Shown here in pieces: positions 11,949 through 64,000 of a DNA stretch of 64,000 nt (its first letter is position 1; every line of letters starts with the position of its first letter). The notes beneath the pieces were generated by a model, which was not told the DNA's origin, did not search any database, and worked only from the letters and a program-made list of their open reading frames with translations. A program made the translations under genes and the position numbers. The DNA is from Peptoniphilus phoceensis (lineage in GTDB: Bacteria > Bacillota > Clostridia > Tissierellales > Peptoniphilaceae): assembly GCF_001517665.2 (NCBI RefSeq), contig NZ_LN999807.1, forward strand, positions 147,788-211,787. The letters are read 5' to 3'.

Positions 11949-12078
11949 AAACAAAAAACTTTGTAAAATCAATGGTTACAGAAGATTAAAAACTGTAACT
12001 GGGATTAAAATGGGAACATTTGTCAAAAAGAATAAATTGAATAATAGTTCCAAGTGGTTTACATTCGGACAAAAAATC

Positions 12079-12106
12079 AGACCGTAGTTTCAAGCTGCGG
12101 TCTTTT
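12079..12106 (+). terminator. Rho-independent terminator inside the island, downstream of guaA
   Basis: AGACCGTAG pairs with CTGCGGTCT (one G-T wobble) around a 7-nt loop and is followed by TTTT. It can end the guaA transcript after the insertion. Confidence 0.8.
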
Positions 12107-53807: not shown

Positions 53808-54029
53808 TTATAGTCTTATACAAGCTCTACATAAATAAAGTTCTACAATATCTAGTAAGTCGAGGGACTCTTTATCACTTTGAGTGTAAGTAATTTTTTT
53901 AGAATAATCTTCTTTTGATATTTGCTCTTTAGGTTTACATTTCTTCTTTTCTTTTGTATTCATAGGTTTTACCTCACAATATAAAATTAAAGTTTTTTGA
54001 CATTGACAAGTGCTTTGGATTAGCAACAT
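53808..54029 (-). CDS. Small cysteine-rich protein of the mobilizable element
   Basis: A 73-residue protein behind a near-perfect GGAGGTGA site seven bases before the ATG. The N-terminal part contains STCQCQK and a cysteine at about residue 18, the middle is Lys-rich, and the C-terminus reads QSDKESLDLLDIVELYLCRACIRL with a CxxC pair. Five cysteines in two groups suggest metal binding. An internal ATG at 53963 with GAGGT upstream may be a second start. I do not recognise a family. It lies between the sigma-like regulator and the recombinases on the same strand. Confidence 0.6.
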   Translation of the reverse strand: MLLIQSTCQCQKTLILYCEVKPMNTKEKKKCKPKEQISKEDYSKKITYTQSDKESLDLLDIVELYLCRACIRL

Positions 54030-54440
54030 AGGAATCTCACCTCCGCCTCTGTTCAGGATGAGCCGGCTTCAACCTTAGAAGTATCATTATCCTCATTTTC
54101 TTCATAGCGAATAGGGTATCCCTCCCTATATTCAAACTCTTACTTATCGCTCCCTTTCTTCTTCCCTTGCTTTTAGCTTAGCAGTACTTGTTTTGCCGAA
54201 TTATTCAGCAGAAAGATCTTGGCGGATAGGTTATTACGCTCCAAAAATGATTAACGTCTTGTCTTGGTCTATTCAGTTGTTAAGGTTCAAAATTTATCGA
54301 GAGTTATTAATCTTTTTAAAATTTGACCATCAGAAAATACTTATCTTGATGAAACAAAATTGTTTAAAATTACCCTCTTATAATTAAGAGTGAAAAGAAG
54401 TCTTTCTTGGTAACCAATTTTCAAAAATAAATTTGGTTAA
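54030..54440 (-). other. Long non-coding stretch, possibly a structured leader RNA
   Basis: No credible gene lies on either strand. The plus-strand frame at 54193-54387 lacks a ribosome binding site. Read on the minus strand, the region follows the sigma-like gene's terminator and contains TGAACCTTAACAACTGAATAG, which resembles sequence before rRNA genes. It also has a short imperfect palindrome CTGCTGAATAATTCGGCA and a GGGAGGGATACCC hairpin, and leads into the Cys-rich gene. Confidence 0.35.
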
Positions 54441-54505: not shown

Positions 54506-54916
54506 CTAAAAGTTTTCCAACATTTCCTTTAGTTTTTCTAAGACTTTATTACGCCTTTTAATAACGGCTGGATGAGAAATATTCAGTTTTGCAGCTACTT
54601 CTCTAATTGTTTCTTCTTTATAAAAAAGACTTTCTATCAAATCTCTTTCAACAGGGTTGAGTTTAGAAATAGCTCTTCTTACTTCTTCAATCATTTCCTT
54701 TGTTTCGATAATTTTTTCAACATCAAATTCCAGATCTTCTAAATTTTCTTCAAAATTACCATCATGATTATAGGAACAAAAAAAGAAACAGTTATTTAAC
54801 CTGTCTCTTCTAATTTGATATTTCTCTTTATTCAATTCACTATGATAGGCAAGATATACTTCCTTGCTAACAACTATTTTCTTTCCTTCTACAAATAAAT
54901 AATATTCTTTGTCCAT
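54506..54916 (-). CDS. Sigma-region-4-like regulator of the mobile element
   Basis: From the ATG at 54916, behind AAGGAGG, the 136-residue protein has an N-terminal EYYLFVEGKKIVVSKEVYLAYH block common to conjugative-element regulators, and a C-terminal sigma-70 region 4 HTH (ISKLNPVERDLIESLFYKEETIREVAAKLNISHPAVIKRRNKVLEKLKEML). No region 2 is present, so it is not a complete sigma factor. It probably controls excision or transfer genes. Its ribosome binding site is hidden in a hairpin and its start overlaps the stop of a leader frame (54916-54996). Confidence 0.82.
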   Translation of the reverse strand: MDKEYYLFVEGKKIVVSKEVYLAYHSELNKEKYQIRRDRLNNCFFFCSYNHDGNFEENLEDLEFDVEKIIETKEMIEEVRRAISKLNPVERDLIESLFYKEETIREVAAKLNISHPAVIKRRNKVLEKLKEMLENF

Positions 54917-54996
54917 TAATTTTTCCTCCTTGTTGACATGAATTTCTTTAGTTTGAAAATAAAATTCACACAAGGAGGGCTTCTAATTCTATGCAT
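54916..54996 (-). CDS. 26-residue leader peptide coupled to the sigma-like gene
   Basis: ATG 54996 lies five bases behind AGGAG. The frame begins MHRIRSPPCVNF, is Lys/Phe-rich, ends STRRKN, and its TAA overlaps the ATG of the sigma-like gene (TAATG). Translation runs straight through the hairpin that hides the downstream Shine-Dalgarno. Ribosomes reading the leader should therefore expose that site. Confidence 0.6.
   Translation of the reverse strand: MHRIRSPPCVNFIFKLKKFMSTRRKN
54925..54978 (-). promoter_or_regulatory. Hairpin that covers the ribosome binding site of the sigma-like gene
   Basis: CCTCCTTGT pairs with ACAAGGAGG, and TGAATTT pairs with AAATTCA, separated by a small internal bulge: 16 pairs in all, with a 16-nt loop. 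The AAGGAGG in one arm is the Shine-Dalgarno sequence of the gene at 54916. Confidence 0.7.
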
Positions 54997-55009
54997 ATAT
55001 TCTCCTGGG

Positions 55010-55048
55010 CATAAAAAAAGACCGAAAGAAAATAAATTCTTTCAGCCA
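55010..55048 (-). terminator. Terminator after the ArpU-like gene
   Basis: CTGAAAG and CTTTCGG arms with a 10-nt loop, followed by TTTTTTT on the minus strand. Confidence 0.7.
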
Positions 55049-55185
55049 ATAAATGCCAATATTAAATTTAGGTGCAAATCACCCAGCATGGATATTATAT
55101 ATGCACTTAAGTACACATAAAATTCGTATATGGTACTTTTTTCATTCGGAAATAGTACGCAATAAGTTCGTCATAAATTAATTTC

Positions 55186-55746
55186 TTAGATGTTCATTAT
55201 TTCTTCAATGCTGCGACCGTCTTTAAGTTGGCTAATAGCAGTCGGTAAAGTATATCCTCAAATTATTACACCAACCAATGCAATTGCTTCTTTTTTTCTT
55301 TGATAATAAACAGTTCTCTCTAAAGATACACTTCTCATACAAGCTTCATCAGTAATCTTTTTTTCAGCAATGTAGTAGTTATAAATAATCTTATGATAGA
55401 TTTCTCCATATTCTGGATAAACTTTTAACCTAACACAGGCATCATAAATTATTAAAAGCATAAGCTTACTATCCATTACATTGGAAACTCTATTATTAAA
55501 CTTTTCTTCAACTCTTTCTGGAGCAAATGTTGAAAGATACAAGTAAGCAGATTCTGAAGTTAATCCATAGTTTTCTTTACTCTCAAACATCATAAAATTT
55601 GCCCTGTTATCTACTGCCCAAGTAACTTGTCTATATAAACTTAAAATAAGTTTTGCAGCTGAACTGATTTTTTCAAATTTCAAGTTGCTATCTGCATACA
55701 AGTTCATTATATTCTTTAAAGTTTTACTTATTCTCAATCTAATCAC
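55186..55746 (-). CDS. ArpU-like regulatory protein with an in-frame TGA
   Basis: The first 162 residues are open: an N-terminal helical region, then YDACVRLKVYPEYGEIYHKIIYNYYIAEKKITDEACMRSVSLERTVYYQRKKEAIALVGVII, a C-terminal HTH-like part seen in ArpU-like and other phage or element regulators. TGA at 55260-55258 interrupts. The same frame then continues for 23 more codons (GYTLPTAISQLKDGRSIEEIMNI) to a TAA at 55186. Related proteins carry a Trp-Gly pair here, so TGG to TGA is likely. The first 162 residues alone may still work. The start is GTG 55746, with TTG 55737 as an alternative. Confidence 0.6.
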
Positions 55747-61358: not shown

Positions 61359-62570
61359 TTACTCCTTACTCATGCATTCATATTCTGTAGACCCTTGTAA
61401 TAAATTTGCTTTACAATTTATACACATTAATTTTTTACAACACGAAGAACATTTAGAGTCTTCATAATTGTTTATTTCCCATGTATCAAATATTTTGTCT
61501 GACATCAATGATTTATAGAGTGTTTCACTAACATTTCCTAATGACTCATCTAATTTCTGACATAATTTAATATCACCAACACTGTTTATAAAAATTGTAT
61601 TTCTTAAACATGGATTGAAATTTTTAAGAGACTCAAAGTTTAAATAGTTTACAGGTGTATTTTCTATACAATACTTTACAGAATTATCTATTATTACTGC
61701 ATATTCACTTGGTGGCAAATCACTTTTATATAAAATCTTATCTTTACAAGACGCTTCCGTAATTAAATCTTTATTCTCATGTAATGTCAATTTACTAAAT
61801 ACTGATATGATACTATAATTTATATTGTATTTATTAAACAGATGAATAACATTTTCAATTTGTTTTTTTATGCCACAAATCCCAGATATACCTTTCATCG
61901 AATCCTCATTCAACGATGGTACAAATAATTCAATTGAGCATTTATGCTTGCCAAGGAACTTAATATCATCTTCTTTCAACAAGGAGCCGTTAGTGCTAAT
62001 TATACAGCCTATTTCTAATCTTTTTAATATCTTCAATATCTCATTTATTGTATTTCTTTTTAAATAAGGCTCGCCACCAATAATGTTTATTTTTTCAACA
62101 CCTAAACGTTTTAGCTGAATAAATAAATATTCCCAGTTAATACTATTTTCTTCGCCATCTTTATTTTTAGCACAAGAACATGGTATGTAATTTTTACTTT
62201 GGCAGTATTCACAATTATAATTGCATTCTCCTGTTATTTGAATCATGCATCTTTTTATGTTTAATTTTTTAAGTCTTTCATATGCTTTTAAATCAAAAAA
62301 ATTCATTTTAAATGGTTCCACAGTGGACAATGCTTTTTGATTTTCCATATACTCATCTTTTATACCTAAACCATTGTTCTCAAAAAAAAGCATTACTTTT
62401 CTCTCAATAAAATTAAATTCATCTTCATTGATGCCATTAAATAGCTTTTCAACTATCTTTCTGTGTTCATCATCAAAATAATAAACTTTCCCATCATATA
62501 GCGAGTAGCAAATATCCTTTCTTAATCCCTTCTCATAATAGACATCTGGATTTAATAATAACCTAATCAT
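61359..62570 (-). CDS. Radical SAM/SPASM peptide maturase
   Basis: The ATG at 62570 follows GAGGAAGG and gives 403 residues. An N-terminal domain of about 90 residues (IRLLLNPDVYYEKG...YFDDEHRKIVEKLFNG) resembles precursor-recognition regions. The radical SAM core has CNYNCEYC (CX3CX2C, for the AdoMet-binding cluster), followed by extra cysteines in NYIPCSCAKN and the GGEP motif. The C-terminal SPASM-type domain has CSSCCKKLMCINCKANL and a final ECMSKE, enough cysteines for auxiliary iron-sulfur clusters. Such enzymes install thioether or similar links in ribosomal peptides. It lies 25 bp downstream of another maturase. Confidence 0.85.
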   Translation of the reverse strand: MIRLLLNPDVYYEKGLRKDICYSLYDGKVYYFDDEHRKIVEKLFNGINEDEFNFIERKVMLFFENNGLGIKDEYMENQKALSTVEPFKMNFFDLKAYERLKKLNIKRCMIQITGECNYNCEYCQSKNYIPCSCAKNKDGEENSINWEYLFIQLKRLGVEKINIIGGEPYLKRNTINEILKILKRLEIGCIISTNGSLLKEDDIKFLGKHKCSIELFVPSLNEDSMKGISGICGIKKQIENVIHLFNKYNINYSIISVFSKLTLHENKDLITEASCKDKILYKSDLPPSEYAVIIDNSVKYCIENTPVNYLNFESLKNFNPCLRNTIFINSVGDIKLCQKLDESLGNVSETLYKSLMSDKIFDTWEINNYEDSKCSSCCKKLMCINCKANLLQGSTEYECMSKE

Positions 62571-62595
62571 ATTCACACCTTCCTCATTTGAAAAT

Positions 62596-64000
62596 TTAAA
62601 CCTTACTTACCTGTCCATTTTCCAAAGCAGTATAATAAAGACTAAATAATTTAGTAATATTGTGTTTGTATTTATTGCAGTATTCCTCATTCATAAAAAA
62701 TTTGTCATCTCCGCAAGAACAATTTGCAAAACAAAGATTACATAAATTAGATATGTTACAACTCTTACAGTAAGATTTCTTTATACTGATAAAATCCTCT
62801 AAATACTTTTTCTGCAAATTCCAATTGATTCCCTCGTCAATATTTCCTATCGAAGATTGGTAATCTATTCTTTCACATATATACATATCCCCAGAATGAG
62901 TAACTGCTAATTTTTCACCTGGTATGCAGGTACCCCCGCTTGTATTATTTACAAGATTTACGTTATTGGCTTGAAAAAGTGTTAATTGATTGAATAAAAT
63001 AGTCTCTATATTAGTTCCATTTGAATTTCCGTCTATATACGAATTTACAATATCTAAAACATCTGCATATGCCTCCTTATCTCCTCTTTGACCATTATAA
63101 TAATTAGTATTCATAGATTTTACTTTATTTATCTTTCTAAATTTATTAAATATATCCGGCATTTCTAAAGCTGCTTTAATTGTATTTGAAAAAGATGTGT
63201 TATTATCGTAAGTCATTAAAAGTGTATATGGATATATGGTATTATTTTCCCTAGATAAGTCTCTATATATTCTATCTAATTCAATTATATTACGTATAAC
63301 TGAATCGTATGTTTTTTCTCTATTATGGAGAATTCTATTTCTGTTATGATCTTCTTTATTCCCGTCTAGGCTAACTGCTATTGAAAATCCATTATCAAGA
63401 AGATATTTAGACTTCTCACTATTTAAAAGATAACCATTTGTTGTTATTGTATAGAATACCTCTTTATAGTTACTTGCATAATTATCCTTAATATATTCCA
63501 CACTCTTGTATATTACATCCCAATTCAATAAAGGTTCTCCACCATAAAAGCCTATCGTTGGTTTAAAATTAGGATTATACGTTAGAACGTTTTTATTAAA
63601 ATTAAAATAATAGTCTATTGATTTTTTAGCAATACTCCAATCCATCATATTCTTACTATGATTCCTTGAGTACTCATATTCATCAGAATAAAAACAATAT
63701 TTACATCTAAAATTGCAAGCCTCGGTTATTATTAAAGTTAGCTGTCTTATTCCATTACTTGTGATAAAATCCTTACTTCCTTCAACCCAAATGTCCATTT
63801 CATTACTTATGTCAAAATCCTCGAACAATGGGTATTTTTTATATTTATTTTTTATTTGATGTATTTTACCTACTTCAATTACATTACCATTTTTATCTAG
63901 GTCATTTTCGCATAATTCAACGTCATTAATAGGCAAAACAAATCGAGTTTTATTGTCATAAATATACCAATTGTCATTCTTTGTCTTAAAAGCTATTGGT
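62596..64000 (-). CDS. Radical SAM/SPASM peptide maturase (5' end beyond the window)
   Basis: The frame is open through the right edge; the TTG at 63936 is not the true start, since upstream codons read WYIYDNKTRFVLPIND, a typical N-terminal block of peptide maturases. The radical SAM site is CNFRCKYC, followed by GFYGGEPLLNW, ITTNGYLL and the SLDG motif. The C-terminal SPASM region holds GGTCIPGEKLAVTHSGDMYICERID, then CKSCNISNLCNLCFANCSCG and a final EEYC. The pattern is that of the CXXX- or Cys-rich-peptide maturase families. With the gene at 61359 it forms a two-enzyme locus; the precursor gene is expected further right. Confidence 0.85.
   Translation of the reverse strand, partial: PIAFKTKNDNWYIYDNKTRFVLPINDVELCENDLDKNGNVIEVGKIHQIKNKYKKYPLFEDFDISNEMDIWVEGSKDFITSNGIRQLTLIITEACNFRCKYCFYSDEYEYSRNHSKNMMDWSIAKKSIDYYFNFNKNVLTYNPNFKPTIGFYGGEPLLNWDVIYKSVEYIKDNYASNYKEVFYTITTNGYLLNSEKSKYLLDNGFSIAVSLDGNKEDHNRNRILHNREKTYDSVIRNIIELDRIYRDLSRENNTIYPYTLLMTYDNNTSFSNTIKAALEMPDIFNKFRKINKVKSMNTNYYNGQRGDKEAYADVLDIVNSYIDGNSNGTNIETILFNQLTLFQANNVNLVNNTSGGTCIPGEKLAVTHSGDMYICERIDYQSSIGNIDEGINWNLQKKYLEDFISIKKSYCKSCNISNLCNLCFANCSCGDDKFFMNEEYCNKYKHNITKLFSLYYTALENGQVSKV

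Follow-up and report, generated by a model that had tools for sequence, protein, structure and literature searches.

A short RxPP leader as a candidate translational attenuator of a mobile-element sigma-factor gene in Peptoniphilus phoceensis and its relatives

Results

The leader, the sigma-factor gene, and their neighbors

We analyzed a stretch of 64,000 nucleotides from Peptoniphilus phoceensis (the window). On its minus strand, a gene for a small regulator is preceded by a short open reading frame (the leader) and followed by recombinase genes (Table 1). An original prediction, made from the DNA letters alone, had called the regulator sigma-like, and its match to the Pfam family Sigma70_r4 (E = 1.2e-07) agrees. 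The same prediction gave the leader its own start and Shine-Dalgarno (SD) site, with a stop that overlaps the regulator's ATG; these features are all present. The gene after the leader is a Sigma70_r4 gene rather than a localization or resistance gene, and its downstream neighbors are recombinases.

Table 1. Features of the leader and sigma-factor locus, in window coordinates
Feature	Position	Strand	Basis or remark
Leader ORF, 26 codons + TAA: MHRIRSPPCVNFIFKLKKFMSTRRKN	54996-54916	-	translation
Leader start ATG	54996-54994	-	sequence
Leader stop TAA	54918-54916	-	sequence
Conserved leader portion, M-x-x-x-R-S-P-P (residues 1-8)		-	comparison of relatives
RSPP codons AGA AGC CCT CCT	54984-54973	-	sequence
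Leader SD, AGGAG	55006-55002	-	sequence; 5 nt 5' of leader ATG
Regulator gene, 136 aa, sigma-70 region 4	54916-54506	-	Pfam PF04545, TIGR02937
Regulator start ATG	54916-54914	-	shares one base with leader TAA (TAATG)
Regulator SD, AAGGAGG	54931-54925	-	sequence; AGGAGG paired 6/6 in fold
SD-sequestering hairpin	54978-54925	-	minimum free energy (MFE), pairing probability, arm cross-pairing
Terminator-like hairpin, GGCTGAAAGAATTTATTTTCTTTCGGTC + T7	55047-55020	-	directly 5' of leader SD; possible attenuator
Terminator-like hairpin	54491-54445	-	3' of regulator gene
Three large serine recombinase genes	53710-52037, 52037-51000, 50378-48885	-	downstream of regulator

The leader in the window begins M-H-R-I-R-S-P-P. 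With only four residues ahead of RSPP, it has no N-terminal export or membrane signal. Both proline codons (54978-54973, minus strand) double as an anti-SD that pairs with the regulator's SD. The hairpin that the original prediction had proposed over this SD was confirmed, both in the MFE fold and by an SD pairing probability of 1.00. Its coordinates (54925-54978) had been given correctly; as to the 16 pairs that had been counted, the stem on the minus strand has 18 pairs, a 4-nt bulge, and 2 pairs near the loop. The MFE of 54900-55020 (minus strand) is -27.7 kcal/mol (z = -3.3), and just 1 of 200 dinucleotide shuffles was as good. In this genome, the pattern CCTCCTT-N20-45-AAGGAGG occurs at three places (the window, a copy on contig C8, and C10:355794), and the reversed control has one forward match. 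The genome carries the sigma gene and its leader once more at C8:155784-156191 (L006; sigma gene 98% identical). At Rfam's gathering score, the window has three matches and the leader region (54900-55060) has none.

The RxPP motif in related loci

A scan of genome contigs identified 24 related loci, mostly from Anaerococcus, Peptoniphilus, and similar genera (three are named Streptococcus and one Erysipelotrichaceae). Further close relatives came from viral contigs (4 loci) and from plasmids. Close relatives that have a leader keep M-[HQ]-[RK]-I-R-S-P-P (RNPP in L011), and their remaining leader residues vary. The leader SD is retained across the aligned close relatives with the exception of L029, in which the sigma gene is broken and the leader is lost. 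Distant sigma genes, which were 29-56% identical to the window's regulator in a sample of 15, were drawn from 249 genomes of the order (90 matched), 398 of the phylum (16 matched), and 73 of another order (20 matched); 80 upstream regions were picked by hand among the matches listed and then fetched.

Among 154 regions upstream of sigma genes, 140 encode RxPP, 8 encode Arg-Tyr-Pro-stop, and 6 encode neither (L066, L073, L083, L179, L187, and L192). These 154 entries correspond to 152 or 153 distinct loci, as L028 and L054 are the same locus and L025 does not differ from L035 in any of 730 nt. L083, where the leader is deleted, and L066, which has RSPL, look like losses of the motif. The 148 loci with either motif include 104 distinct leader-to-start sequences, and both the loci and their clusters (formed at a simple string ratio of 0.80) are related rather than independent. 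The 154 leave out this genome's own copies (L005 and L006); L036-L052, mostly already counted by coordinates; L029, for its broken gene; partial, split, or duplicate entries (L007, L030, L031, L053, L070, L077, L078, L079, L080, L082, L165, L182, L183, L188, and L189); L163/L164; and L180 and L181, whose anchoring had been wrong at that stage. RxPP is also present in the 10 left-out loci that were then checked (L006, L042, L043, L050, L053, L163, L164, L180, L181, and L183).

The 140 RxPP motifs are RSPP (130), RDPP (3), RAPP (2), RGPP (2), REPP (2), and RNPP (1), so that x is Ser, Ala, Gly, or Asp in 137 of them. Examples of leaders are MPKSRSPPFL, MPRCRSPPFF, VKYIREPPLC, VKKPRGPPAF, MTIIVRARAPPVLP, and VAFILCNNKTAVRCRSPPLVLHF. 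The spacing is similar across loci: in 146 of the 148 motif loci, the Arg codon precedes the start of the sigma gene by 53-69 nt. As a background, 53 of 231 SD-bearing open reading frames in the fetched DNA have RxPP codons at -95 to -45, and all of these 53 except L164 (RLPP) belong to the sigma family, as judged by N-terminus or inspection. They include one with the leader MRCRSPPLHLDF beside tet(O)/tet(40) and another with CRAPPFLLRF. In viral contigs, one leader pattern by itself gave three matches, each ahead of a sigma-family gene; scanning the viral contigs with the Arg-Tyr-Pro-stop and the Peptoniphilaceae leader-only patterns gave no matches.

Leaders of the Arg-Tyr-Pro-stop class (for instance MKKRWETYIARYP-stop; L072, L074, L076, L081, L157, L158, L160, and L162) also precede sigma-r4 genes and also adjoin an SD hairpin. 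They are possibly termination-arrest peptides.

We also inspected the genes downstream of 10 hand-chosen distant loci (8 with RxPP and 2 with Arg-Tyr-Pro-stop). In eight of them, a long open reading frame within about 3 kb downstream encodes a tyrosine or serine recombinase (integrase); the other two have a helicase and a transglutaminase-like protein. This proximity in distant relatives is compatible with a role in the excision or transfer of the element, which the original prediction had suggested for the switch.

Conservation of the peptide

In representatives of the 18 RxPP clusters, neither the Arg nor either Pro ever changes. The Arg is encoded by five codons from both codon families (AGA, AGG, CGA, CGC, and CGT), the first Pro by CCT or CCA, and the second by CCT, CCG, CCC, or CCA; x is Ser in 13, Asp in 2, and Ala, Gly, and Glu in 1 each. 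In the shifted frames, the Arg position has five and eight residue types. For the first Pro, the shifted frames vary almost as little (two residue types each), so this column by itself cannot separate peptide from RNA, and the evidence for Pro comes from seven clusters that keep Pro-Pro with codons outside the SD pairing (L067, L068, L075, L119, L144, L153, and L178). Their SD partners lie at +7 to +15. These comparisons suggest that RxPP is conserved at the level of the peptide and not only of the RNA, clearly so at the Arg.

A switch made of RNA only, with CCUCC kept as an anti-SD able to bind the SD of either the leader or the sigma gene, and the peptide motif as a by-product, strikes us as very improbable. 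It would suit the alternative pairings in loci of the L002, L055, L066, and L131 types (anti-SD with leader SD, or sigma SD with an upstream arm), but it does not account for an Arg that is invariant through five codons and not conserved in shifted frames, for the seven clusters whose Pro codons are not SD partners, or for the Arg-Tyr-Pro-stop class, which has no CCUCC at the motif. The narrower idea that Pro-Pro is a mere by-product of the anti-SD is disfavored by the seven clusters and by the codon and frame comparison.

Covariation of the hairpin arms and masking of the SD

Covariation of the two arms among related lineages, a check that the original prediction had named, is present. Across 22 cluster representatives, the arms of the same hairpin pair with a mean of -18.5 kcal/mol, versus -11.7 kcal/mol for mixed arms, and none of 5,000 permutations reached the observed total. 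Arm specificity is weak in three of the 22, where many mixed partners pair with the 5' arm equally well or better: L019 (13 of 21), L055 (15 of 21), and L133 (11 of 21). In L019, both arms are rewritten and a hairpin over the SD still folds.

We then considered where the SD's partners lie relative to a ribosome on the motif. When the RNA between the Arg codon and the start of the sigma gene is folded, every SD base, or every base except one, pairs within 0 to +15, counted from the first base of the predicted P-site codon, in all 22 representatives and in 146 of 148 loci. This corresponds roughly to the span under the ribosome's leading half. When 60 nt upstream are included, 18 of the 22 representatives keep the 0 to +15 pairing with probabilities of 0.83-1.00, L002 (0.50) and L131 (0.39) are mixed, and the value is 0.00 for both L055 and L133. 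Of the 148 loci, 85 keep it at a probability of at least 0.8, 7 are in between, and 56 are below 0.2. These 56 are L133 and the entire L055 cluster (55 loci); in them, the SD pairs with an arm 5' of the leader. Both kinds of partner combined hold the SD at 0.8 or above in 126 of 148 loci, so that most loci have a hidden SD. Because the SD of the L055 type is paired with the upstream arm, a simple arrest model needs an extra step there or is wrong there. In all 55 members of this cluster, the pre-leader arm competes with CCUCC for the sigma SD, which may be a three-way switch.

Leader starts and stops

Among the 140 RxPP leaders, an SD precedes an ATG, GTG, or TTG start in 101 and an ACG in 20; the remaining 19 show no obvious combination of start and SD. 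In the 20 ACG leaders (the L131 cluster, in the range L131-L151, and L156), ACG stands at the position of the ATG behind a good SD, which is possibly a conserved non-AUG start. Where a start and an SD are present (101 leaders), RxPP occupies residues 5-8 in 80. The ends of the leaders are more varied: the stop is upstream of the sigma start in 66, overlaps or abuts it in 30, and lies past it out of frame in 26, and another 18 leaders are fused to the sigma gene. Even close relatives include leaders with an early stop (L016, L021, and L026) and leaders fused in frame to sigma (L001, by a 2-nt deletion, and L019). The original prediction took the whole 26-codon frame and its overlapping stop to be the switch; this part was not supported, as frame and stop vary among relatives and it is RxPP that is kept, at a place where an arrested ribosome would lie over the anti-SD.

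These data also bear on plain translational coupling, in which any ribosome on the leader would melt the hairpin and re-initiate from the overlapping stop at the sigma ATG, with no arrest. The TAATG overlap and SD hairpin of the window and the 30 leaders that overlap or abut the sigma start are what such coupling would produce. Nevertheless, we judge it unlikely: the stop position and the downstream residues are variable, whereas RxPP is kept in one frame by different codons, and for the 18 fused leaders, re-initiation after a stop is meaningless. Putative arrest at RxPP is better supported as the opener of the hairpin than mere ribosome flow, on which the original prediction had relied.

Another open reading frame lies upstream of the terminator-like hairpin (it starts with an ATG near 55087 and runs as far as the terminator). 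We do not favor it as a second leader peptide because its fifth codon is TAG in 5 of 29 aligned relatives (L015, L020, L023, L024, and L026). Two others of the 29, L028 and L029, have unrelated DNA at this position.

The upstream terminator-like hairpin and drug-dependent stalling

The original prediction had named neither the terminator-like hairpin at 55047-55020 nor the RxPP motif. In the window, this hairpin and the leader SD leave no visible room for a promoter between them, which makes it probable that transcription continues through the hairpin; a second layer of control is therefore likely. Of the 22 representatives, 15 have a terminator-like hairpin no more than 150 nt ahead of the motif, versus 4 of 110 base-shuffled segments.

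The leaders might instead stall ribosomes in response to a drug or another ligand, as erm and msrD leaders do, with [KR]-x-R or the short nascent chain sensing the antibiotic and RxPP only strengthening the stall. The upstream hairpins would suit this. So would the Lys or Arg at -2 of the Arg in 104 of 140 leaders; the resulting [KR]-x-R before the Pro codons is the +X+ motif. The usual position of RxPP at residues 5-8 is similar to the length range of known drug-sensing leaders, and the neighbors at some loci include tet(O)/tet(40) and ABC transporter genes. On the other hand, +X+ is absent from 36 of 140 leaders and the invariant part is RxPP, and no resistance gene was recognized beside the sigma gene of the window. 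Overall, we consider drug-dependent stalling quite improbable.

A proposed mechanism

On balance, we favor the view that this is an ultrashort RxPP-type arrest leader that serves as a translational attenuator, opening the SD of the mobile element's sigma gene. In the predicted structure, the default is that the leader's CCUCCU pairs with the sigma gene's AAGGAGG and hides the SD. In many members, the predicted CCU CCU arrest codons and the anti-SD are the same six bases. Given this geometry, a ribosome arrested on the motif would cover the two Pro codons and sit on the anti-SD, so the 3' arm would be released and the sigma gene translated. If the ribosome did not arrest, it would pass or leave and the hairpin would re-form. 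The sigma-like protein, to judge by adjacency, probably promotes the element's recombination genes.

We infer the arrest, its relief, and the signal that is sensed. With about seven residues in the tunnel, relief of the SecM type, in which the chain is pulled from outside, would not be expected. The likely variables are factors or drugs with a site of action at the peptidyl-transferase center or in the upper tunnel, namely EF-P, ABC-F proteins, and antibiotics that target the ribosome. A broader proposal, which we put forward tentatively and would not yet bet on, is that RxPP and Arg-Tyr-Pro-stop leaders together form a family-wide switch of Bacillota mobile elements that senses the state of translation, switches on the sigma-like regulator of the element, and so couples excision or transfer to ribosome stress.

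If these proposals are true, then RxPP arrest is common in mobile elements of Bacillota and can occur from a nascent chain of about seven residues. Furthermore, the mobility of the elements, one of which lies beside tetracycline-resistance genes, would be tied to the state of the ribosome, which would suggest why translation stress might mobilize them.

Comparison to known arrest systems

Our best reading is that the kind of control is known (attenuation by an arrest peptide) and that an ultrashort RxPP leader on a mobile-element sigma gene is new. The titles and abstract openings listed from a literature collection that leaves most subscription journals outside its coverage describe no RxPP arrest leader before a mobile-element sigma gene. 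An EMBO J survey of predicted proteins reports that upstream ORFs (uORFs) with RAPP or RGPP are absent from many Gram-positives, including Bacillota (PMC12992588); leaders as short as these easily escape protein prediction. RxPP is known from experiments as a motif that arrests ribosomes, and such motifs are described as depleted from bacterial proteomes, notably in Bacillota (PMC12992588).

The closest motifs are those of ApdA, ApdP, and ApcA, which use R-A/G/S/D-P-P (PMC10951233, PMC12992588). As described there, RAPP arrests with R-A-P in the P site and Pro or Gly in the A site. These motifs are C-terminal, in longer proteins of localization pathways that precede localization genes, whereas the motif here is close to the N-terminus and its arrest is predicted. 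Work with random libraries picked out RxPP in which x was Ser, Ala, Gly, or Pro (PMC7897499), and among published mutants, Ala or Gly at x gave robust arrest and Ser or Asp was partly permissive (PMC12992588). In ApdA and ApdP, RAPP alone is reported as insufficient for stable arrest, and RSPP variants are weaker (PMC7897499). That RSPP, the commonest form in our leaders, is only partly permissive in ApdA/ApdP counts against the arrest reading.

Stalling on SecM, whose frame lies upstream of secA, disrupts a stem-loop that otherwise conceals the secA SD; its arrest motif, RAGP, likewise contains an Arg (PMC10987492, PMC7897499). The layout of the window fits SecM's logic in miniature. The differences are that SecM has 170 codons, an export signal, and relief by secretion, while the leader here is short and without a signal, has its motif at residues 5-8, and precedes a mobile-element sigma gene.

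Two other cases involve uORFs. CruR, a DUF2946 uORF of Bordetella pertussis, controls downstream genes in a RAPP-dependent manner, but it has 145 residues, is predicted to be exported, senses copper, and acts by Rho-dependent termination rather than by SD masking (PMC9426467). In S. lividans, SLIV_33595 and SLIV_33605 are uORFs with RAPP or RGPP that encode RAPP-like arrest peptides ahead of ECF sigma-factor genes (PMC12992588), but these are predicted four-transmembrane proteins of an actinomycete, not short leaders of mobile elements. In the erm and msrD systems, a ribosome stalled by a drug on a short leader acts through a stem-loop or terminator (PMC5118997, PMC10314930). The window's leader is like erm's in being short and followed by a hairpin that hides the next gene's SD; the erm and msrD leaders differ in being drug-dependent and ahead of resistance genes, and they are not known to carry RxPP.

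The orf7 region of a Tn916-like element (in pCF10) resembles the window in having a terminator-like hairpin, a short ORF, an SD hairpin, and a sigma-70-like gene near xis/int. We rejected it as a member because there is no RxPP in the 180 nt before the sigma-like gene of pCF10. The short ORF there (L197:4856-5060, minus strand) encodes MQQIPLSHWD and lies with an SD hairpin before orf7, downstream of the terminator-like hairpin.

Other features of the window

A phage origin was considered and rejected: the 641-nt region has no DNA match in phages, although distant relatives of the sigma gene do occur there. The gene upstream of the leader (55258-55746, minus strand) has a weak, sub-cutoff match to phage regulators of the ArpU type (TIGR01637). 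A match to the Rfam pemK RNA (RF02913, 55.6 bits; 54026-54090, minus strand) lies downstream of the sigma gene and ahead of the serine recombinases. By eye, the Anaerococcus plasmid pAPRE01 (L004) has DNA that resembles this pemK region; of the sigma gene region, only the end matches there. At 61359-63936 (minus strand), two proteins with CxxxCxxC-type clusters resemble, again by eye, radical-SAM peptide maturases. Finally, 11968-12098 (plus strand) matches SpR18, an Rfam small RNA described from Streptococcus, at 150 bits.
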